From an uncultured Alphaproteobacteria bacterium (GTDB lineage: Bacteria; Pseudomonadota; Alphaproteobacteria; UBA11222): a stretch of DNA of 64,000 bases. Positions 4,029 to 36,350 of the stretch are shown piece after piece. The notes under the pieces are model-generated. The model did no database searches. It saw only the letters and a list, made by a program, of their open reading frames with translations, and had not been told where the DNA came from. The position numbers were made by a program, and so were the translations under genes. The stretch lies in contig CAMYID010000018.1 in assembly GCA_947258435.1 (NCBI GenBank), positions 62,001 to 126,000 on the forward strand, in the 5' to 3' direction. Each line of letters opens with the position of its first letter. Positions within the stretch are counted from its first letter, which is position 1.

Positions 4029-5159
4029 TTATTCAGCCGCCATGGCAAGCGGTTCTTCCTTGACCGGCAGATTATAGAGCTTTTTGACATTGTCATGGCA
4101 GACTATGTTGCGCTCATCCTCTGTCAATTCGGCCGCATGCTCGGCCAGGATTTCCTGCGACCAGGGCCAGGTTGAATCGCTGTGCGGGAAGTCGTTGGCC
4201 CACATCAGCCGTTCGATATTCAGCATATCCTTCACCTTGAAGGCGACCCAGTCATCCTGGAAGGTCAGATAGATATTCTCTTTGAAATATTCGCTGGGCA
4301 GCTTCTCAAGCTCCTGTCCCTTCATCCAGAAGCGATGCCGCTTATAGGCATGATCGGCGCGATACATGAAATGAGGTGCCCAGCCCGCATCGGCTTCCAC
4401 GCAGCAGATCTTCAGCCTGGGATGGCGCTGGAACACACCGGAAAAGATCAGCATGCCCATAATATCCTGACAGCCACGGATGATCGACTGGAAGCTGTTG
4501 ATCCGCGGACCGCGATGCTGCTCAATGCCGTTCGCCTTGATCGTCAGAATATGGAAGGACAAAGGCATCTCAAGCGCGATTGCCGCTTCCCAGAACGGGT
4601 CATAGATCGGGTCATCATAGTCGGCCACCCCGGGATTGCCCGGCATCATTACGCCGACAAAACCCATTTTCTTGACTTCCTCAAGCTCCCTGATGCCTTC
4701 CTCAACACTGCGCAGGGCAATCTGGCCCAGCCCGAACAGGCGGTTCGGCGCGTCGGCGACAAAAGTTTGCAGCCAACGGTTGTAAGCGTCAAAGCAGGCC
4801 TTCTTGTAATCCATATCTTCCAGGTTACAGAGCATCATACCAACGGTGGGATAGATGATTTCCGCTGCAATCCCGTCACGATCCTGATCGGCCGCGCGCG
4901 CCTTGCCATCCCAGCCACTGCGCCACAGATCATCAAACTTGATGCCGCGCCCTTTCAGGTCAGCCGGGTCCTTGCCTGCCGCCGCGGCCAGCCCGACATT
5001 GATCGGCCGTTTCACTCCCTCAACCTCAAAAGCGCTGCCGCCGGCCCCGTCATCGATCATGCGCGGTGCGCGGTCCTTGAATTTCGGATCGATAAAATCG
5101 ACATAGCAATGTGGCGGCTCGGTAATATGCGAGTCCGATGAAATCATTTTTTTCAGCAT
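4029..5159 (-). CDS. Amidohydrolase-2 family metal-dependent hydrolase
   Basis: TIM-barrel hydrolase or decarboxylase of the amidohydrolase-2 (ACMSD-like) group, 376 residues. The D-x-H metal motif is at the N-terminus (SSDSHITEP, D9 and H11). Further candidate ligands are the His in FHIL, the His in RHPRLKICCVEADAG, and the Asp in WANDFPHSDST, which is the characteristic C-terminal motif. No signal peptide is seen. Members act on aromatic or cyclic acids; the substrate here is unknown. It is transcribed away from the DapC-like gene across a 440-bp divergent region and toward the deacylase, which may be co-expressed. Confidence 0.88.
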   Translation of the reverse strand: MLKKMISSDSHITEPPHCYVDFIDPKFKDRAPRMIDDGAGGSAFEVEGVKRPINVGLAAAAGKDPADLKGRGIKFDDLWRSGWDGKARAADQDRDGIAAEIIYPTVGMMLCNLEDMDYKKACFDAYNRWLQTFVADAPNRLFGLGQIALRSVEEGIRELEEVKKMGFVGVMMPGNPGVADYDDPIYDPFWEAAIALEMPLSFHILTIKANGIEQHRGPRINSFQSIIRGCQDIMGMLIFSGVFQRHPRLKICCVEADAGWAPHFMYRADHAYKRHRFWMKGQELEKLPSEYFKENIYLTFQDDWVAFKVKDMLNIERLMWANDFPHSDSTWPWSQEILAEHAAELTEDERNIVCHDNVKKLYNLPVKEEPLAMAAE

Positions 5160-15111: not shown

Positions 15112-15139
15112 TGATCCAATTTCGCCGGCAACGCGTATC
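15112..15139 (+). promoter_or_regulatory. Putative ECF11-type (RpoE/ChrR) promoter
   Basis: TGATCC (15112-15117), 16 bp, then CGTATC (15134-15139). The same arrangement, TGATCC-N16-CGTAAC, occurs on the minus strand at 23010-23037 before the converging operon. It resembles the -35/-10 pair I recall for ECF11 sigma factors such as Rhodobacter RpoE. The predicted transcript start is near 15147, just ahead of the ChrR-like gene. Confidence 0.65.
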
Positions 15140-15230
15140 CACAACATAATGCAAGGGATCGCATGCATTTACGTGGCTGGCAACAGCTAAACCGTAACCA
15201 TATTGCATCAGAAGGATGCATCAGCAGGCA

Positions 15231-15245
15231 GCATCTGACAGATGC
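15231..15245. promoter_or_regulatory. Palindrome GCATCTGACAGATGC with TGCATC repeats upstream
   Basis: Perfect 7-1-7 palindrome 20 bp before the ATG at 15265. Just upstream, TGCATCAG occurs twice, 13 bp apart. The cluster looks like operator DNA, or the region could be translated if the alternative start at 15163 is used. Confidence 0.35.
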
Positions 15246-15264
15246 AACAGAAAGCGGATTAAGG

Positions 15265-15966
15265 ATGGTTGACACTGAATGGTTGCTTGACTGGTCAAGC
15301 GGTGCATTAAAGCCGGGGTTTCGCCCTCTGATCGACGGCTATCTGTCGCTCAATCCCGAAGCACGGGAAGCCGCTGCCCTGTTCGACCGGCTGGGCGGCA
15401 GCCTTTTGGCGGAAGCGGATCCGGCGCCGCTGTCGCCTGGAGCCACGGGAAATGTCCATGCCCTGCTCGATCAGGCGCCGGGCACGGAATCTCCGGAAAG
15501 GCAATCCTCCCATGTCAATCAGACAATTACCGGACAACCAGCAGGTAACAGGCAGACAGCGGGCGATGCATTTGCGGCCCTGCCCGAGGCCATGCATGCC
15601 TGCCTGACAGGGCGCGAACGCACATTGCGCTGGTTCAGCCCGTCGCCCTGGTTTTCGATACGCCGGTTGCTGCCGCGCGGACAAGCTGCGGCAGGACCCG
15701 GCGGCTTTCTCATCCGCGTCGCGGCAGGACACAGCATCCCCTCCCACAGCCATGGCGGCACTGAAATGACGCTGGTTCTGCAAGGCGGTTATTCGGACTG
15801 CACCGGCCAGGCAAAAAGGGGGGATCTGATCATTCACGATCCATCAATCAATCACCAGCCGATCGCCGACCCCGGTGAGAGCTGTATTGTCGCAACGGCC
15901 TTTGAAGGCCCGCTCAGACTGACCGGCCGGTTTGGCAGGATCATACAACCGTTTTTCGGTTTCTAG
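15265..15966 (+). CDS. ChrR-like cupin anti-sigma factor with degenerate N-terminal zinc site
   Basis: A 233-residue relative of ChrR, the zinc anti-sigma factor that releases RpoE under singlet oxygen. The C-terminal cupin keeps its metal set: H, H and E in SHSHGGTEMTLV and H in NHQPIAD. The N-terminal anti-sigma domain is recognisable (LLDWSSGALKPG...GYLSLNPEARE...LGGSLL), but where ChrR has H-L-x-x-C-x-x-C this has Y, N and A, so all visible zinc ligands there are lost. An alternative start at 15163 has a better ribosome site (AAGGGA) and would add 34 residues. I prefer 15265 because it matches the ChrR N-terminus. No sigma factor gene is adjacent. Confidence 0.8.
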   Translation: MVDTEWLLDWSSGALKPGFRPLIDGYLSLNPEAREAAALFDRLGGSLLAEADPAPLSPGATGNVHALLDQAPGTESPERQSSHVNQTITGQPAGNRQTAGDAFAALPEAMHACLTGRERTLRWFSPSPWFSIRRLLPRGQAAAGPGGFLIRVAAGHSIPSHSHGGTEMTLVLQGGYSDCTGQAKRGDLIIHDPSINHQPIADPGESCIVATAFEGPLRLTGRFGRIIQPFFGF

Positions 15967-15974
15967 GGGGCGCT

Positions 15975-16640
15975 ATGCGGTCGGGGGGCATATTTGCAAC
16001 ATTCGTTGCATTGGTCGTAATCACAATCTGGTTGCAACCGGCCATGGCAACGCCGCGCGGCGCCTCACATGAAGAATACAGCTATACGATTTTCCGCAAC
16101 GGTAAGCAGCTTGGCACGCAGCATGTCAAAATTGCGCGCGAGGACGACACTGCCATTGCCACGATCCGTATCGAGATGGTCTATCGTCTCGGCTTTATAA
16201 AGCTTTATGATTATCTGCATGAAAGCCGCGAGGAATGGCGCGGCGGTTTACTGACAAGCCTTGACAGCCATACCACTGAAAATGACGAAACCCGCTTCGT
16301 TCGCGTTGCCAGGCATGAAGACAGTCTTGCCATTGACGGCAGCGGCGGCAGACACAGCCCGGAAAACAGTGTTTTTCCAACGACATACTGGAATATCGGC
16401 CTGCTTGAACAGCAGACGCTTTTTAATACCGAAGACGGTGCGCTTGTTCATGTCACATCGGAAGAGCTGGGCGAAACCTTGTTGACCCTGAACGGCCAGG
16501 AAGTCCGTGCACAGCATTATCGGATTTCGGGCGATCTTGATATCGAACTCTGGTACAGCAGGGAAGGTACCTGGCTTCAATCACGATTTTTTATTGACGA
16601 TGCTGAAATAATTTTTCGACTGCAATCCCTTTCATCCTGA
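15975..16640 (+). CDS. DUF6134-like exported protein
   Basis: A 221-residue protein with an N-terminal signal peptide (hydrophobic core ~8-20, cleavage near AMA-TP). It resembles the DUF6134 group of periplasmic beta-rich proteins (EYSYTIFRNGKQLGTQHV..., later YHLESREEW-type and ELWYSREGTWLQSRF segments). Function is unknown. It starts 9 bp after the ChrR-like gene and is certainly in the same operon. The location suggests a role in envelope or lipid stress, but this is inference from context only. Confidence 0.75.
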   Translation: MRSGGIFATFVALVVITIWLQPAMATPRGASHEEYSYTIFRNGKQLGTQHVKIAREDDTAIATIRIEMVYRLGFIKLYDYLHESREEWRGGLLTSLDSHTTENDETRFVRVARHEDSLAIDGSGGRHSPENSVFPTTYWNIGLLEQQTLFNTEDGALVHVTSEELGETLLTLNGQEVRAQHYRISGDLDIELWYSREGTWLQSRFFIDDAEIIFRLQSLSS

Positions 16641-16680
16641 CCTGATTTCAACAATAAAGAGCGCGTAACGCGACATAACA

Positions 16681-17199
16681 ATGCTTTCACCCCGCGAAAA
16701 TATTCCCCTGCTTCCTATCGAAACAGGCGATGAGGCGATCAGTTCCCTTACGGATAAAAGATTGCGCGCCATAGCCGCAAGTTACCGCGATTGGGCCCGG
16801 GACAAGCCAATTGCGGCGCGCTCAGACATTGTCCCACGGAAAATCCCGCGACTGCTTCCCTATATTCTCCTGTTCGACCGGGTCACACAGCACGGCAGAA
16901 CCGGTTTCAGCACCAGGTTATGTGGCAGCGAAATCGTCGATATGCTGCGCTTTGATGCAACAGGGCAGTTTATCGGGGCCGATGCGCCGAAGGACGATAT
17001 AAGCTTCCGTATTGCCCGCACACTGAATATCGTGATCGAAACACGCGCGCCCGTTCGCGCAAGCGGCAATCTGCAACTGGCCGGGCGTGAGTTTGTGCGT
17101 TTTGAAGCGATCTTTTTCCCCCTTTCGGAAGATGGCGAAACGATTGAGAAAATCATCGGCGGCGTTGTCCGAAGCCCGGTAAGCTGGGATCAGAAATGA
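16681..17199 (+). CDS. PAS_5-type (DUF1457) PAS domain protein
   Basis: A 172-residue single PAS-like domain protein of the alphaproteobacterial PAS_5 type. The N-terminal pattern ARSDIVPRKIPRLLPYILLFD is characteristic, followed by the FSTRLCGSEIVDMLRFDATGQFIG segment. No output domain is attached, so it may sense a small ligand or redox state and act through a partner. It overlaps the following SDR gene by 4 bp (ATGA), which implies translational coupling. Confidence 0.75.
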   Translation: MLSPRENIPLLPIETGDEAISSLTDKRLRAIAASYRDWARDKPIAARSDIVPRKIPRLLPYILLFDRVTQHGRTGFSTRLCGSEIVDMLRFDATGQFIGADAPKDDISFRIARTLNIVIETRAPVRASGNLQLAGREFVRFEAIFFPLSEDGETIEKIIGGVVRSPVSWDQK

Positions 17200-17972
17200 C
17201 AGACACGAAAACAGGCCATTGCATCTGGATAACAGGTGCAAGCTCTGGAATCGGCAAGGCGGTGGCACTTGCCTATGCGCAGGCGGGATATACTATCGCC
17301 GCAAGTGCGCGCTCGCAGGACGCCCTTGAGACACTGGCGGCCGACGCATCAGACATGGCCGGTACAATCGTACCGGTGCCACTTGACGTCACCGATAAGG
17401 ATGCGGCCGAAGCCGCGGTCGAACAGATCGAGCGCATAATCGCGCCGATATCGACCGCGATCCTGAATGCGGGCATCTATTTACCGGTCGATCCTTCGGC
17501 GGAATTCGACCCTGCCCCCTATCTCAACAGCATGGCTGTCAACTATCACGGCACGATCCACTGCCTGCTGCCGGTTACACAACGCATGCTGTCGCGGCGG
17601 TCCGGTCATCTTGTGATCCTGTCCTCGGTCACCGGCTATGGCGGTCTGCCCACATCCGCGGCCTATGGCCCCACCAAGGCAGCACTGATAAATCTGGCGG
17701 AATCGATTAAATTCGATCTCGATCCCCATGGAATCAGGACCAGCATCGTCTGCCCCGGATTTGTCGATACGCCCGCGACCGAATCCAACGCCTTTCCGAT
17801 GCCGTTTCTTGTGCCAACCGCGGCGGCCGCACAACGCATCGTCGACGGTATTTCGGCGGGAAAGTTCGAAATCACCTTCCCGCGCCGTTTCACCTTCGCA
17901 CTGAAATTTCTCAATATGCTGCCTTACAGGCTGTATTTCCCGATCGTCAGGCGGATGACGGGCCGGGGCTGA
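17196..17972 (+). CDS. Short-chain dehydrogenase/reductase
   Basis: NAD(P)-dependent classical SDR of 258 residues. The nucleotide motif is TGASSGIG (13-20), the NAG motif is at 91-93, and the catalytic set is S143/S144, Y157 and K161 (YGPTK). No basic residue stands out to fix the cofactor. A hydrophobic C-terminus (LKFLNMLPYRLYFPIVRRMTG) suggests membrane association, as in lipid-acting SDRs. Last gene of the chrR-like operon; its 3' end overlaps the convergent MFS gene by 26 bp. Confidence 0.9.
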   Translation: MTDTKTGHCIWITGASSGIGKAVALAYAQAGYTIAASARSQDALETLAADASDMAGTIVPVPLDVTDKDAAEAAVEQIERIIAPISTAILNAGIYLPVDPSAEFDPAPYLNSMAVNYHGTIHCLLPVTQRMLSRRSGHLVILSSVTGYGGLPTSAAYGPTKAALINLAESIKFDLDPHGIRTSIVCPGFVDTPATESNAFPMPFLVPTAAAAQRIVDGISAGKFEITFPRRFTFALKFLNMLPYRLYFPIVRRMTGRG

Positions 17973-19347
17973 TTTCCCCGCCCGCACCAGACGCGGTTTC
18001 TGCCCGCGCGGCGATCTGATCGCGCAACGCCTGTTGCGCCGCCGCATCGATCGGAAAATTCCAGATCAGCATCACCGAAACGAGCTTGAAGCCAACAGGC
18101 ACAAGGCCGTAAAGCAGGCTCAGCCCCAGCAATGCCGTCGGGCCATTGCTGTCCGATTGCGCATCGAAGCCGAGCAGGCCAAGCACCGGGAAAGCCAGCC
18201 CGACCGCACCCGCAAGCGACAATTTTGTCGCAACACCCCATAAGGCAAAATAAAAGCCGGTCCGTTGCGCCCCGCTTTCGGCCGTATCCGCATCCACGAC
18301 ATCGGCCTGCATCGAGGCGGGCAGCACAATATCGGCGCCAAGGCTGATACCGCTCAGGATCGAAATCACAACAAAGGCCCAAAGATCCCCCGCCCCCAGG
18401 AACGGCACCCACAAAAACACCCCGCACGCCCACAGCAGCGACACAGCCCAGACCCGATGCTTGGTATATCTGTCCGCAAGCTTGAGCCAGAAAGGCACCG
18501 CAATCACCCCGGCCCCGAAATAGGCAAACAGAATTGCGCCCTGCGCATTGCCGCTTTCCAGCACATGGGTTGCAAACAGCAGGAACAATGTCGCGGGCAG
18601 GCTGTTTGCCATCCCGTTCAGCAGAAATGCGATAATGAGCGCACGGAACGGCCTGTTACGCCAGATTATCGCAAGCCCCGTACGCCAGTCCTGATGCGCG
18701 AAATGCACGGCCGGCGGCTCCGGCACCATCCGCAACGCAAGTAATGTCCCCACAGGCAGTAAAATCGCGGCAAACAGGAATATCCCGACAAGCGGGACCT
18801 CCGCTCCCGTCAGCCCCGCAACGATCAGCAATCCCGGCATGCCGGTTGCGCACAAGGTGCCGATCACCGTCAGCGCCTCGCGCCATGCGACGATATGGGA
18901 GCGCTCGTTATAATCGGTGGACAGCTCCGCCCCCCAGGCATTATGGGGCAGGCTGATTGCCGTCCATGCCAGATAAAGCGCAACGCTCCAGAAAAACAGA
19001 TAAGCGCCCCCCGCATCATCGGGCGGCAGGCACAACATGAAAGCCGTTACAAGCGCCGCAGCCGTGCCGCCCGCAATCCACGGCTTGCGCCGCCCCCAGC
19101 GCGTCTCCCACCGGTCCGACAGCAGCCCGATCACCGGATCCGACACCGCATCGAGAATCCGCGCGACCAGCAGCAAGACGCCGATCAGTGCCAGATCGAC
19201 CCCAAGCTCCTGCGCGTAATAGGGCGGAATATAAATGTAAACCGGCACCGTCAGCGCGGCGAGCGGCAGTGCCGGCAAGCCATAGGCGAAATAATGTCGT
19301 GTACCGATCTTGCCGATCCGGCCCGGTGACAGCAGCCTAGTACGCAT
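17947..19347 (-). CDS. MFS transporter, GPH/MelB-like
   Basis: Twelve-segment inner-membrane carrier of 466 residues. The loop after the second segment reads DPVIGLLSDRWETRWGRRKPWI, the signature of the glycoside-pentoside-hexuronide (MelB) group. I start it at the ATG 19347, 23 bp after the upstream methyltransferase stop. The frame stays open 36 codons further, but that would lie inside the methyltransferase gene. Similar carriers accompany the Cfa-like/FAD/DUF1365 set in other Proteobacteria, perhaps acting on lipids rather than sugars. Last gene of its operon. Confidence 0.87.
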   Translation of the reverse strand: MRTRLLSPGRIGKIGTRHYFAYGLPALPLAALTVPVYIYIPPYYAQELGVDLALIGVLLLVARILDAVSDPVIGLLSDRWETRWGRRKPWIAGGTAAALVTAFMLCLPPDDAGGAYLFFWSVALYLAWTAISLPHNAWGAELSTDYNERSHIVAWREALTVIGTLCATGMPGLLIVAGLTGAEVPLVGIFLFAAILLPVGTLLALRMVPEPPAVHFAHQDWRTGLAIIWRNRPFRALIIAFLLNGMANSLPATLFLLFATHVLESGNAQGAILFAYFGAGVIAVPFWLKLADRYTKHRVWAVSLLWACGVFLWVPFLGAGDLWAFVVISILSGISLGADIVLPASMQADVVDADTAESGAQRTGFYFALWGVATKLSLAGAVGLAFPVLGLLGFDAQSDSNGPTALLGLSLLYGLVPVGFKLVSVMLIWNFPIDAAAQQALRDQIAARAETASGAGGEISPGPSSA

Positions 19348-19370
19348 CAGCCACCCGACACATTCTGTGA

Positions 19371-20648
19371 TCAGCTGCGCGCAAGGCAGATCTGGGTGAC
19401 ATCGGTATTGCCGGAGCGAAACCCGCCTTCGCAATAGGCGAGATAGTAAGTCCACAGCCTGCGGAAGCGTTCATCGAAACCCTGTTCGCTGATTTGCGGC
19501 CAGCGTTCGCTAAACCGTTGCCGCCATTGCAGCAGGGTTTCCGCATAATCACGGCCAAATGTCACCGCATCGCGCCATTGCAGGCCCGCGCGCGCCACCT
19601 GCTCGCGCAGTGCGGTACCGCTTGGCAGCATGCCGCCGGGAAAGATGTAGCGCTGAATAAAGTCGCTGCCCTTGCGATAGGAATCGAACTGGTCATCCGC
19701 GATAGTGATGATCTGCAGCCCCGCTGTCCCGCCCGGTGCCAGCCTGTCCCGCAATTTACCGAAAAACACCGGCCAGTATTGTTCGCCGACAGCCTCGAAC
19801 ATTTCGATGGAGGCGACATTGTCATATTGCTCGGCCACGTCGCGATAATCCTGCAAGCGGATATCGACCTTGTCGTTCAACCCCTTTTCGAACATACGAT
19901 GCCGGGCGAAATCGAACTGCTCGGTACTGATTGTAATGCCGGTAACCCTGCAGCCGATTTCAGATGCCGCAAATTCCGCAAATCCGCCCCATCCGCTGCC
20001 GACCTCAAGTACATGGCTGCCCGGCCGCAACCCCATGGTTTCAGCAAGCGCGCGATATTTGTTCTGCTGCGCCTGGGCAAGCGGCTCCCCTTCCGATGCG
20101 AATTTGGCGGACGAGTATGTCATCGTCTCGTCAAGCCATTCGGTGTAAAATGCATTCCCCAGATCATAGTGATGATGGATGTTCCTGCGCGCGCCACGCC
20201 GGCTGTTGCGGCGGAAAATATTGTGCCGCAGCCCCTCCAGGAGACGAACCCAGAGCTTGCCGCGCATCTGCTCGCCGATAGCGGCGTTATTGTGGGCGAC
20301 AACCGTGATCAGCATCCCCAGATCCGGGCTGTCCCACCAGCCTTCCAGATAGGCCTCGGCAAAGCCGATCCCACCGCCGATCAGAAGCCGTTTGGCAAAT
20401 CGCTGATCGCGAACGACCAGAATACCCAGCCCGTCTCCCTCATCCCCCTCAAAACACAGCTTGCGCCCGTCCGGCAGCTGGATCAGCAACTTTCCCCAAC
20501 GCATATTCGTCAGGATCATCAGTGCCGCCCGAACCCAGGGCGTAATCCCCGGCAGCCGGCTGATTTCACCTGCTGACAGGTGCAATGCGTCATCTGAAAG
20601 CTGATTTTCCGCAGGCATTGCCGCCTGCGTGTCTGTTTCACTTATCAT
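19371..20648 (-). CDS. Cyclopropane-fatty-acid-synthase-like SAM methyltransferase, altered active site
   Basis: SAM-dependent methyltransferase of 425 residues related to Cfa. The SAM loop is VLEVGSGWGG (~213-222). Compared with E. coli Cfa, the bicarbonate-binding residues have changed: the Cys of YSCAY is Ser (TYSSAKF), the His of LLHTIG is Ile (QIITIA), and the MFEHVG motif reads MFEAVG, with the Glu kept. The enzyme may methylate an unsaturated acyl chain without ring closure, as UfaM-type enzymes do. It overlaps the DUF1365 gene by 4 bp, so it is translationally coupled. Confidence 0.85.
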   Translation of the reverse strand: MISETDTQAAMPAENQLSDDALHLSAGEISRLPGITPWVRAALMILTNMRWGKLLIQLPDGRKLCFEGDEGDGLGILVVRDQRFAKRLLIGGGIGFAEAYLEGWWDSPDLGMLITVVAHNNAAIGEQMRGKLWVRLLEGLRHNIFRRNSRRGARRNIHHHYDLGNAFYTEWLDETMTYSSAKFASEGEPLAQAQQNKYRALAETMGLRPGSHVLEVGSGWGGFAEFAASEIGCRVTGITISTEQFDFARHRMFEKGLNDKVDIRLQDYRDVAEQYDNVASIEMFEAVGEQYWPVFFGKLRDRLAPGGTAGLQIITIADDQFDSYRKGSDFIQRYIFPGGMLPSGTALREQVARAGLQWRDAVTFGRDYAETLLQWRQRFSERWPQISEQGFDERFRRLWTYYLAYCEGGFRSGNTDVTQICLARS

Positions 20649-21574
20649 CTGCCAGCCACCTGTTCTGATTTCCGCTCCGACCGTCCCGCAGCCAAACTGT
20701 CCCGGGAATAAAATGTCGCGCCTTTACGCCACAACCGCAGCGCCTCGAAATGAATAGCCGCGAAAACCTTCAACGTCATCAGCGGATAACGGAAAAAGGC
20801 CAGCGCCAGCGTCCGATCGCGCAGCATGCGCCTTTGGCCCGTCAGCGTTGCGATCAGCAGCTCTTCATCCCCCTCATCGGTTGCGGTTTCGCGGATCATC
20901 ACTGACAATTTCTCCCCCGGCACCCGCAGCCGGAAGCGATAGCGCATTGCCATCCCGATAAAGGGGGAAACGTAAAAATCCTTTTCCTGCCTGTGGGTGT
21001 GCACAGCGCTTGTCTGTGCCTGTGCCTGGGTCTGTGCCTGGGTCTGTGCCGGGGTCTGTATCTGCGTCTGCGTCCGCGCCGCGGCAACGCCGTCTTCAGC
21101 ATCTGTATCCGGCGCCGGCACCGCACCCCTCGCCCCCTGACCATCGCCGATGGGAATCACATAAGGATGTTTATCGCCAAATGTGTTGCGCACTTCGTAA
21201 ATCAGCGCCCGCAACGCACCCGATTCGGTGAAGCAGAAAAACACTGTCAGCGGGTTGAACACAAAGCCAAGCACCCGCGGAAAGCATAACATGAAGTAAC
21301 GCCCATCAGGGGGTTCCAGCCCGGCATCCGCAAGCTCGGCCCTCACCCAGTCGCGCAGACAATCATCGGTGCGCGCACCATGATCCCTGTCATGCAGGCT
21401 GAACAAGTTAAACCGGTTATGGGAAAAAAAGCGCAGCTTCTTGCCGAACTCGTCCAGCCGGTCGATATCGAGCAGCAGGGAAAAGACGCGATAGACAAAG
21501 CGATGCCGGAACGGCCGCAGCCGCGCATGCATCACATGGCCGAAATAGACCGCTGATTCTGGTGTACTGTTCAT
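20645..21574 (-). CDS. DUF1365 domain protein with Gln/Thr repeat insert
   Basis: A 309-residue DUF1365 protein (HARLRPFRHRFVYRVFSLLLDID, FGFVFNPLTVFFCF, MRYRFRLRVPGEKLSVMI). The family occurs beside Cfa-like methyltransferases and FAD oxidoreductases and is implicated in modified fatty acid synthesis. Between residues ~165 and ~205 there is an unusual insert rich in alternating Thr-Gln and Ala-Gln, encoded by a ~12-bp repeat. The start at 21574 overlaps the upstream FAD gene stop by 4 bp (ATGA). Confidence 0.87.
   Translation of the reverse strand: MNSTPESAVYFGHVMHARLRPFRHRFVYRVFSLLLDIDRLDEFGKKLRFFSHNRFNLFSLHDRDHGARTDDCLRDWVRAELADAGLEPPDGRYFMLCFPRVLGFVFNPLTVFFCFTESGALRALIYEVRNTFGDKHPYVIPIGDGQGARGAVPAPDTDAEDGVAAARTQTQIQTPAQTQAQTQAQAQTSAVHTHRQEKDFYVSPFIGMAMRYRFRLRVPGEKLSVMIRETATDEGDEELLIATLTGQRRMLRDRTLALAFFRYPLMTLKVFAAIHFEALRLWRKGATFYSRDSLAAGRSERKSEQVAGR
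21011..21078. repeat. Degenerate ~12-bp tandem repeat inside the DUF1365 gene
   Basis: Plus-strand unit close to TCTGTGCCTGGG, repeated with variation about five times, encoding the Thr/Gln/Ala-Gln stretch on the minus strand. Being in multiples of three it keeps the frame. It is likely to vary in length between strains. Confidence 0.7.
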
Positions 21575-22866
21575 TCCGCCGCGACTTTGTAGTTGCTGGC
21601 CACAGGGCGTTCCCACGGGCAGATCGCACCAAGCTTTTCAGCCACCTCGATACCCGACCGCAGCCCGTCTTCATGGAAGCCGTGCGCCGTCCACGCCCCG
21701 CAATACCATACACCGCCCCGCCCTTGAATGGCAGGCAGCGCACGCTGCGCGCGCAAGGTCTTCATATCATATTGCACATGATCATATTCGAGAGTTGCAA
21801 AGGTCAATTCCGGTTTCGGCGGCACCGGCGGATTGAGCGTCACAAAAACCGGTTTTCGCGGGTCGATATTCTGCAACCGGTTCATCCAGTAGGTCACCGC
21901 AACCGTTGCATCGTCCCGCGCGCCGCTGGCCGACAGATAGTTCCAGCTTGCCCAGATCCCGCGCCGCCGGGGCATCAGAACGGGATCGCGGTGAACATAG
22001 GCAAGATTGGGCGCATAGCTGATCGCACCGAGAATTTCCCGCTCCTCCGCATCGGGGGCCGCAAGCATCCTGCATGCCTGATCCCCATGGACAGCGAGGA
22101 TAAGCTGATCAAACTGTTCCGTCCCGCCAAGGGCATCATGCACGGCGACACCCCCGTCATGCCGGCTGACCCGAACGACCGGACAGCCCAGTCGCAACGC
22201 CTCGGGAAACAGTGCCGTCAGCCGCTTGACATATTCACGGCTGCCACCGGCCACAGTGCGCCAGCGGGGCCGGTCCCGCGACAAAAGAAAGTGATTCTCG
22301 CAGAATGTGATGAAGCTTTGCGCGGGAAAATCCAGCATACCGCGCATCGAAGTCGACCAGATTGCACCGCCCATAGGCAGCAGATAATGCTGCTGAAACG
22401 CCTGTGTATAACGCTGCGCCGCAAGATAGTCGCCCAATGTCAGCCCTTCCAGCACACCGGCGGCAAGATCGGCGGGGGCCTGCTTGTTAAAGCGCAGAAT
22501 ATCGCGCAGCATACGCAGAAATGATGGGCGCACAAGATTACGCCTCTGGGCGAAAACAGTATTGAGATTGTCGCCCGCCCATTCCACCGCGCCACCGCCG
22601 ACGCTGACCGCGAAACTCATATCGCTGGCGACATTGGGCACCTCAAGCGCTGAAAACAGCGCCGTCAGATTCGGGTAATTTGCTTCATTATAAACAATAA
22701 AGCCGGTATCGACCGGCAAGGTCTCGCCGTCATAGTCAAGATCGATGGTGTTGGAATGACCGCCTGGACGAGGCTCTGCCTCATATAGGACAATTTCATG
22801 CTGCCGATGCAGCATCCATGCCGCACCTAGCCCGGAAATCCCCGAGCCGATAATGGCAATCCGCAT
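21571..22866 (-). CDS. FAD-dependent (amine oxidase-like) oxidoreductase
   Basis: Flavoprotein of 431 residues. The N-terminal dinucleotide motif is IIGSGISGLGAAWML (4-18), with the acidic ribose-binding EAEPRPGGHS at ~33-42. The C-terminal FAD motif is GVWYCGAWTAHGFHEDGLRSG. It belongs to the NAD(P)/FAD amine oxidase-like group regularly linked to DUF1365 and Cfa-like genes, probably acting on acyl chains as a desaturase or oxidase. First gene of the minus-strand operon, downstream of the ECF11-like promoter at 23010-23037. Confidence 0.88.
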   Translation of the reverse strand: MRIAIIGSGISGLGAAWMLHRQHEIVLYEAEPRPGGHSNTIDLDYDGETLPVDTGFIVYNEANYPNLTALFSALEVPNVASDMSFAVSVGGGAVEWAGDNLNTVFAQRRNLVRPSFLRMLRDILRFNKQAPADLAAGVLEGLTLGDYLAAQRYTQAFQQHYLLPMGGAIWSTSMRGMLDFPAQSFITFCENHFLLSRDRPRWRTVAGGSREYVKRLTALFPEALRLGCPVVRVSRHDGGVAVHDALGGTEQFDQLILAVHGDQACRMLAAPDAEEREILGAISYAPNLAYVHRDPVLMPRRRGIWASWNYLSASGARDDATVAVTYWMNRLQNIDPRKPVFVTLNPPVPPKPELTFATLEYDHVQYDMKTLRAQRALPAIQGRGGVWYCGAWTAHGFHEDGLRSGIEVAEKLGAICPWERPVASNYKVAAE

Positions 22867-23218
22867 ATAACCCCTCTAGTTCCCCGCAACGCCGCCCGCC
22901 GCGATGCTATGTGATTCAAGGACGCAATCCAACCCGACACCCCGATTGACGTCATCGCAGCCTGTGCCGGCCCGGAGGCACCTGCAGCAGCAGGGGCAAA
23001 GTCTGTCAGGTTACGCAATCCACCCGCATTTGGATCACAGTGTTACGCGATCGCAAAGTAGCGTCTGCTACTGCAACTGAGATTTGGAAAAGATTTGCCG
23101 AAAGCTGTTACAGGACTTGCAAATTCCCTTTGCACCGACATTATTAGCGGACAGGGAAATTATACTGAAGTCGCCGTTAACACATCCCACAAGACAACAA
23201 AATCGATCGGAACAGACC
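22867..23218. other. Divergent intergenic region between the FAD gene and the PagL-like gene
   Basis: About 350 bp with no credible gene. It carries the ECF11-like promoter for the minus operon (23010-23037) and a TGACGTCA octamer at 22947-22954. It must also hold the PagL promoter, for which I see no clear -35/-10. Confidence 0.5.
23010..23037 (-). promoter_or_regulatory. Putative ECF11-type promoter of the FAD/DUF1365/Cfa-like/MFS operon
   Basis: On the minus strand: TGATCC (plus 23032-23037), 16 bp, CGTAAC (plus 23010-23015). It has the same hexamers and spacing as 15112-15139. The predicted start is ~8 bp further, leaving a leader of about 135 nt before the ATG at 22866. Confidence 0.62.
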
Positions 23219-23821
23219 ATGTCGCCGCGTACTCTGTTTGGCTGTTTGCATCCCGCTGCTTTTTTCGCCGGTATTTTTGCTGTTTTCTGCTTTCAGCCCG
23301 CCGCCGCGATCGAATGGTCAAAGCTTGCCCCGGAACGGGTTTCCGCCCATGAAATCAGAATAGGTGTTGCCGCCCACGATGTTGGCGCATTCGGCGCGCA
23401 GGAAGAAGATGGCGAGGATTTCAGCGGCGAACTGCGCTTTGCCCTGCCGCGCTGGGGCTGGGTTGATTTTCTGCAGCATCCGCGCGCAAAGCTGGGGGCA
23501 AACGTCAATAACAGCGCCAATACCAGCGCGGCCTATGCCGGATTAAGCTGGCATTGGCCGCTTGGCCGGCACGTCTTTGTCGGCTTTGACTTCGGGTTGG
23601 CCGCGCATGATGGCGAAACCAGCACCATTCGCACGGACAGAAAGGAACTGGGCACCCGCATCCTGTTCCGCGAAGCGCTTGAGCTGGGCGTGCTTATCCA
23701 GGACAAATACACCCTGTCGCTCAGGCTTGATCATATTTCAAACGGCCATATCATACCGGGCGGCAGCGGCAGCAATGAAGGGCTCGATACATTCGGCATC
23801 ATGTATGGCATGCGGTTCTGA
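23219..23821 (+). CDS. pagL: Lipid A 3-O-deacylase (PagL)-like outer-membrane protein
   Basis: Outer-membrane beta-barrel hydrolase that removes the 3-O-linked acyl chain of lipid A. From the ATG at 23219 it is 200 residues with a signal peptide (hydrophobic ~13-25, cleavage near AAA-IEW). The PagL catalytic set is intact: H172 and S174 in LDHISNGH and E187 in NEGLD. The C-terminus ends in Phe after alternating residues (GIMYGMRF), as in barrels. The frame is open another 45 codons upstream, but these lack signal-peptide character. Confidence 0.85.
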   Translation: MSPRTLFGCLHPAAFFAGIFAVFCFQPAAAIEWSKLAPERVSAHEIRIGVAAHDVGAFGAQEEDGEDFSGELRFALPRWGWVDFLQHPRAKLGANVNNSANTSAAYAGLSWHWPLGRHVFVGFDFGLAAHDGETSTIRTDRKELGTRILFREALELGVLIQDKYTLSLRLDHISNGHIIPGGSGSNEGLDTFGIMYGMRF

Positions 23822-35675: not shown

Positions 35676-36350
35676 TTAAGCCGGGAAAGGCGGCGGATTG
35701 GCGAGATGCCCGGTCTTTCGATAAAGCCGGCAGCCCCGCGCGCTCCGGACTGTCTGCCGCGATCCGCAGGGAAGCCGCAACCAGTCGCCTGCCCGATATT
35801 TCCCGCTGTCGTCTGAAAAGCCGCCTGTCAGCACGAAATATTCCACACCGCCCGGAAACGCCGCTTCGGGCAATTCCTCACCGGGCGCAAGCTCAAGCAA
35901 TGTGACCTGCTCATCGGAGCTCTCATGCAGCAGATAGCCCCCCGCCGCAGCTCCGACAGGCCCTAACGCATCCGTATCGTTGAGGTTAAGCCGCACATAT
36001 TGCCGATCATCAGCCGGCATCTGCCATAATTTGACAAAGATCACGCAGCCCGCCTCGCTATGGGGGATATGCCGCGAGCCGACGGGGTTTCGCACATAGC
36101 TGCCTTCAGGATAGTCCCCCCTCTCATCGCTGAAAACGCCTGACAGAACGATAAACTCCTCCCCGCCCTCATGGCGATGGGCGCTGAACCGGCTGCCCGG
36201 CGCATAGCGCACAAGACTTGTCGCGCGGGCCACCTCATCCCCGTCCCGTTCCAGCATCCGGCGCTCAACCCCCGCCATGGGCGACGCCACCCAGGGCAGA
36301 TCCTGTGAACGGACATGGGCACGTTTTGTCAGATCCGCATGGCGCTTCAT
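35676..36350 (-). CDS. ChrR-type bicupin protein
   Basis: A 224-residue protein made of two ChrR-like cupin units and no anti-sigma domain. The first unit carries a full metal set (SAHRHEGGEEFIVLSG and H in SRHIPHSE). The second (LLELAPGEELPEAAFPGGVEYFVLTGGFSDD) has lost the His pair, so it probably does not bind metal. It may be a small-molecule or peroxide-responsive cupin, or an enzyme such as an acetylacetone-cleaving type dioxygenase; no evidence decides. It lies between purK and purD, same strand. Confidence 0.8.
   Translation of the reverse strand: MKRHADLTKRAHVRSQDLPWVASPMAGVERRMLERDGDEVARATSLVRYAPGSRFSAHRHEGGEEFIVLSGVFSDERGDYPEGSYVRNPVGSRHIPHSEAGCVIFVKLWQMPADDRQYVRLNLNDTDALGPVGAAAGGYLLHESSDEQVTLLELAPGEELPEAAFPGGVEYFVLTGGFSDDSGKYRAGDWLRLPCGSRQTVRSARGCRLYRKTGHLANPPPFPA

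Follow-up and report, generated by a model that had tools for sequence, protein, structure and literature searches.

Known ECF11 regulons and the two convergent operons

In Rhodobacter sphaeroides, the ECF11 sigma factor RpoE (sigmaE) and its anti-sigma factor ChrR are encoded by co-transcribed, autoregulated genes. The anti-sigma domain (ASD) of this ChrR binds zinc, which is required for inhibition of the sigma factor; the role of the ASD zinc in the singlet-oxygen response has been called unknown (PMC6852236). The RpoE-dependent RSP_1091-1087 operon has its own ECF11 promoter and includes the genes for RSP_1091 (UfaD) and RSP_1090 (UfaO, a DUF1365 protein), which are needed for the formation of furan fatty acids and, under singlet oxygen, also for activation of RpoE and turnover of ChrR (PMC3818230, PMC7380195). 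Promoters of the form TGATCC-N16-CGTA, as well as targets of the cfa and SDR types, have been described for RpoE2-ChrR of Shewanella oneidensis and for PSPTO_1043 of Pseudomonas syringae (PMC4336711, PMC5507510). The sigma and chrR genes are again joined and autoregulated in these bacteria, and photolyase or glutathione peroxidase is found among the targets. In Rhodospirillum centenum, chrR (RC1_2981) is listed as a single gene with an upstream CRP-like site, TGTGATCCATTTTGCG, that contains TGATCC, but it has been reported only as repressed by the CRP-like regulator CgrA (PMC4681086).

The DNA analysed here (the window) is a 64,000-nucleotide stretch from an uncultured alphaproteobacterium, whose genome (G000) was compared with that of a sister species of the same genus (G001). 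An earlier note on the window had placed an ECF11-like promoter in the intergenic DNA before each of two converging operons, and had assigned all eight genes to one regulon driven by an rpoE located elsewhere. We found both elements at the positions given there, each upstream of the first gene of a four-gene operon, and annotated the locus as follows.

15112..15139, plus strand: ECF11-type promoter of the chrR operon, TGATCC-N16-CGTATC (exact match; kept in G001)
15265..15966, plus strand: chrR, anti-sigma factor with ASD and cupin domain (TIGR02451; Cupin_7; 2z2s_B, 2.7e-22; ligand table; predicted model)
15975..16640, plus strand: DUF6134 protein with a hydrophobic N-terminus (Pfam PF19630, 7.4e-45)
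16681..17199, plus strand: PAS_5 domain protein (Pfam PF07310, 1.7e-9)
17196..17972, plus strand: short-chain dehydrogenase/reductase, SDR (Pfam PF00106)
17947..19347, minus strand: MFS_2 (GPH-type) transporter, last gene of the lipid operon (Pfam PF13347, 4.5e-79)
19371..20648, minus strand: CFA/UfaM-type fatty-acid methyltransferase (Pfam CMAS PF02353, 1.2e-82)
20645..21616, minus strand: DUF1365 protein, UfaO-type (Pfam PF07103, 1.3e-78; UfaO carries DUF1365, PMC7380195)
21571..22866, minus strand: FAD amine-oxidase-type protein, UfaD-type, in the RSP_1091 position (Pfam PF01593; gene order as in PMC3818230 and PMC7380195)
23010..23037, minus strand: ECF11-type promoter of the lipid operon, TGATCC-N16-CGTAAC (exact match; kept in G001)

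The two elements, which lie in intergenic DNA 153 nt upstream of chrR and 171 nt upstream of the FAD gene, were the only exact matches to TGATCC-N16-CGTA in the window, where 0.05 would be expected; none of 100 shuffled sequences gave two. Both match the published ECF11 consensus (PMC5507510, PMC5036791, PMC4336711), and the target promoters of the candidate regulon all fit the form TGATCC-N16-CGTA taken from PMC5507510. A scan of the whole genome returned nine exact matches, where base composition would predict about 4.5, so that sequence alone was weak evidence and conservation was used to decide. G001 has the same eight genes, likewise arranged as converging operons in identical order, and both promoters occupy equivalent positions. 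Three promoters are shared by the two species (the third is described below); across them, 30/30 element bases were identical compared with 32/48 spacer bases (Fisher p = 1.3e-4). That the two window sites arose by chance was rejected on the basis of this preference for element over spacer together with the expectation of 0.05. The other exact TGATCC sites in the genome lie for the most part within coding sequence or abutting it, and apart from the third promoter none recurs in G001, so no further protein-coding targets were found genome-wide. One TGATCT site, TGATCTTGCCCTGCTGCCGGATCGTAT, is identical in both species (G000:C4:93336-93362 (-), G001:C123:11139-11165 (-)) and may be a mere coding-sequence match. 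Where the operons meet, their final genes share 26 bp at the 3′ ends (17947-17972).

The minus-strand operon contains the gene types of R. sphaeroides RSP_1091-1087, with families and order matching the Ufa module; its CMAS methyltransferase fits either UfaM or an ordinary Cfa. The operon probably directs formation of a protective membrane lipid of the furan type. The R. sphaeroides counterpart of the SDR in the plus-strand operon is possibly RSP_1087, and an SDR gene adjoins chrR also in G098, G072, G104 and G023. Overall the locus resembles the R. sphaeroides system in its ECF11 sigma factor, intact ChrR cupin ligands, promoter consensus, FAD, DUF1365 and CFA-type lipid genes, and in having a separate ECF11 promoter for each operon. 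It differs in that the sigma gene is unlinked and devoid of an ECF11 promoter, chrR is followed in its operon by DUF6134, PAS and SDR genes, and the zinc ligands of the ASD are missing. Photolyase or glutathione peroxidase genes were not found behind the conserved sites, in contrast to S. oneidensis and P. syringae. Two smaller features of the lipid operon were observed: a repetitive insert (TQTQIQTPAQTQAQTQAQAQT, 20993-21100) in the middle of the DUF1365 protein, shorter in G001 and flanked by the two blocks in which other homologues match, and a divergent PagL-type lipid A deacylase gene (23219-23821, plus strand), which shares upstream DNA with the operon and is its neighbour in G001 too.

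A sigma gene apart from its anti-sigma gene

The earlier note had described the locus as a module without its sigma factor. The sigma gene is indeed absent from the window, but the anti-sigma gene is present and had been overlooked, as the first gene of the plus-strand operon encodes ChrR (TIGR02451, 130.5 bits against a cut-off of 124.5), with R. sphaeroides ChrR as best sequence match in the PDB. This is the one full-length ChrR match in the genome; a second match, to a cupin protein (window 35676-36350), spans the cupin part only. Six proteins in the genome carry sigma region 2, and one of them is clearly ECF11 (G000:C7:70316-70906(-)). Its best PDB match was R. sphaeroides RpoE (2q1z, 1.7e-45; next sigma family 2.3e-16), and it is 40-54% identical to sigma factors adjoining chrR in other genomes. 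Because this gene lies on a different contig from the window, the placing of rpoE elsewhere was correct. The proposal of a single regulon, vulnerable to a genome lacking any ECF11 gene, gains support from the presence of this gene, the agreement of the motif with the published consensus and the RSP_1091-1087 gene types of the minus-strand operon.

The G001 sigma factor is 90% identical to that on C7 and is likewise encoded apart from chrR; neither gene has a chrR beside it, and no anti-sigma gene adjoins the C7 gene. No ECF11 motif was found within 350 nt upstream of the C7 gene. A candidate promoter there was rejected, since only GCGTAAC is conserved, the −35 element does not fit and the spacer contains an indel between the two species. 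Upstream of the orphan sigma gene, the two species share strongly conserved DNA around GCGTAACATAACCGCGAAATGTGCAAATTTCTAGGAAGCCGCGTGAAATC (L093:6880-7250 (-), L092:3390-3770 (-)); this stretch, without an ECF11 −35 element, may hold another control element.

The positions of chrR and sigma genes were compared in 116 genomes, the motif being sought within 350 nt upstream. Almost all genomes in which chrR matched strongly also had an ECF11 sigma gene, and the two genes were apart in eight: G000, G001, G023, G072, G075, G085, G098 and G104. The motif was present upstream of 23/28 joined operons and, among the separated genes, upstream of 7/8 chrR but 0/8 sigma genes; upstream of chrR in G023 there is a near-match, AAATCC-N16-CGTATA. 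With our genus counted once, the comparison becomes 0/7 for sigma against 6/7 for chrR (p = 0.005). Contig breaks in draft genomes could mimic a split, an artefact that is excluded for G000 and G001, where each of the two genes has other genes on both sides within its contig. The trees do not support one common origin of the split, since they do not group the split genomes and require at least three (sigma) and at least two (ChrR) changes on well-supported branches, many other branches being weak. Among the eight, the promoter is found with chrR in seven and with rpoE in none, a pattern that points to selection for negative feedback exerted by way of ChrR.

ChrR without ASD zinc ligands and the proposed regulon

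All four ASD zinc ligands (H6, H31, C35 and C38) are replaced, by M, Y, N and A, in the ChrR proteins of the window and of G001, so that by sequence the protein belongs to the ChrR family yet is not a zinc-binding (ZAS) anti-sigma factor. The cupin metal ligands H, H, E and H are intact, with H161, H163, E167 and H197 invariant. The predicted model of the window ChrR contains a confident four-helix ASD bundle (pLDDT ~88-96), and its best PDB matches were the ChrR chains of 2q1z and 2z2s (Foldseek, 3.3e-15 for 2q1z ChrR). ChrR is 65% identical between the window and G001, with the ASD kept. In such an ASD the helix bundle is presumably held by packing alone. Two or more of the four ligands are changed in 10 of the 36 ChrRs with an aligned ASD (window, G001, G023, G008, G044, G112, G033, G070, G075 and G109). 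The genes of several, in G112, G033, G070 and G109, lie directly behind their sigma genes, which indicates that zinc-free or zinc-poor ChrRs probably still function. Zinc loss is not caused by the split, as G072, G085, G098 and G104 are split and keep all four ligands. Among described proteins, the non-zinc class I anti-sigma factors RseA and RskA similarly have a helix-bundle ASD without a zinc-binding motif (PMC7406223), but they belong to other anti-sigma groups, whereas the window protein is a cupin-bearing member of the ChrR family. Zinc and non-zinc members are mixed within groups of class I anti-sigma factors, and in such mixed groups the motif has been taken to play a structural and not a sensory role (PMC7406223). 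The genus offers a natural test of what the ChrR ASD zinc is for.

We consider it highly likely that the two operons form the core of an ECF11 (RpoE-ChrR type) photo-oxidative or peroxide stress regulon in which the sigma gene has become separated from the anti-sigma gene. At rest, ChrR (15265-15966) would hold the C7 sigma factor (G000:C7:70316-70906) inactive. Under singlet-oxygen or lipid-peroxide stress the cupin domain would lead to loss of ChrR, and the freed sigma factor would transcribe both operons from TGATCC-N16-CGTA, yielding modified (furan-type) fatty acids and fresh ChrR. With no recognisable ECF11 promoter at the sigma gene, feedback would run through the brake only. The core regulon is already known from other bacteria; new here are the unlinked sigma gene without ECF11 autoregulation, the promoter-bearing anti-sigma operon, the zinc-less ASD and a possible sRNA. 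Observed are the promoters and their conservation, the gene identities, the split, the ligand loss and the joint absence of sigma and chrR genes from relatives, while sigma-ChrR binding, the signal, transcription from these sites and the sign of the feedback are inferred. The following counts against this reading: R. sphaeroides ChrR needs its ASD zinc (PMC6852236) and the window ChrR lacks the ligands, the genome total of motifs is only about twice that expected by chance, and the lipid operon is kept without an ECF11 sigma gene in related genomes. In four genomes of the same family (G002-G005), neither an ECF11 sigma gene nor chrR was found. G002, G004 and G005 keep the FAD, DUF1365, Cfa and MFS genes without a full motif upstream, the MFS gene of G002 being cut by a contig end; DUF1365 was not detected in G003. 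These assemblies are 64-97% complete, so absence from one genome alone means little, but all four agree.

The loss of all four ligands, the zinc requirement in R. sphaeroides and the unlinking of chrR would also fit a ChrR that no longer inhibits the sigma factor, having become a cupin sensor, an enzyme or a relic, with the sigma factor controlled through its own transcription or by another partner. We consider this unlikely, given an ASD that is predicted with high confidence to form the four-helix bundle of sigma-bound ChrR and is kept in G001, the zinc-poor ChrRs directly behind their sigma genes and the mixing of zinc and non-zinc proteins among class I anti-sigma factors. Still less probable, to the point of being hard to credit, is that the motifs are chance matches or that other promoters mainly drive the operons. 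The genome-wide count would leave room for this, but two matches in the window, their placement before the expected genes, the conservation of element over spacer and the loss of the motif together with the sigma gene all stand against it.

Within the stress-regulon reading, it is a reasonable, if not the favoured, possibility that the signal is lipid or organic peroxide, or some other oxidant, and not singlet oxygen, with the term photo-oxidative carried over from Rhodobacter. Neither a reaction-centre nor a rhodopsin gene was found in the genome; phototrophy is therefore improbable, and in practice the signal may consist of lipid peroxides. Organic hydroperoxides are also sensed by ChrR systems (PMC6852236), and in Shewanella, RpoE2 gives protection from paraquat and H2O2 (PMC4336711). 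However, UfaD- and UfaO-type genes are present, which R. sphaeroides needs for the singlet-oxygen branch and not for the organic-peroxide branch (PMC3818230), and ECF11 answers singlet oxygen in Caulobacter, itself a non-phototroph (PMC6852236).

A third conserved promoter and a candidate small RNA

The third conserved site, TGATCC-N16-CGTATC (G000:C4:218039-218014(-), conserved in G001), lies in a conserved island of ~160 bp (-32 to +132) within otherwise poorly aligning intergenic DNA. The island consists, in order, of the palindrome GTGATCACRATCAC, the promoter, two predicted hairpins and a stem followed by a T run, and looks like a small RNA gene, whose promoter joins those of the two operons in the regulon set.

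G000:C4:217906-218040 (L158 ~4905-5040), minus strand; G001:C163:4671-4806: candidate sRNA gene of ~100 nt, with conserved ECF11 promoter, hairpins and intrinsic terminator

The island was not found in G002-G005, and farther genomes gave only short, chance-like matches, so that only G000 and G001 were seen to carry it; a search of Rfam with the candidate returned chance-level matches only. The RpoE-dependent sRNA Pos19 of R. sphaeroides likewise has an ECF11 promoter and a narrow species range (PMC5036791). Pos19 is 219 nt long, and the candidate is set apart from it by its locus and its size, ending in a stem and T run. An ECF11-dependent sRNA, if true, would add a post-transcriptional arm to the response.

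Taken jointly, these features would describe a recurrent rewiring of ECF11 systems, in which rpoE moves away from the operon and is no longer autoregulated, whereas chrR keeps the promoter, so that feedback is purely negative and acts through the brake; in this genus, moreover, the brake would work without ASD zinc and the sigma factor would drive an undescribed sRNA. We hold the chances of this combined reading to be evenly balanced. The split genomes provide a natural test of which feedback the response needs, on the sigma factor or on the brake.

Just upstream of the sRNA promoter, the palindrome GTGATCACGATCAC (L158 ~5055-5070) has the look of a CRP-type site. Next to it is a gene of the Crp/Fnr type, named by inspection of its sequence (L158 4080-4832, plus strand). 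The FAD and sRNA promoters both read TGTGATCC, as does part of the CgrA site reported at chrR in R. centenum (PMC4681086). As a lead only, ECF11 promoters may be subject to competition from a protein of the CRP family.
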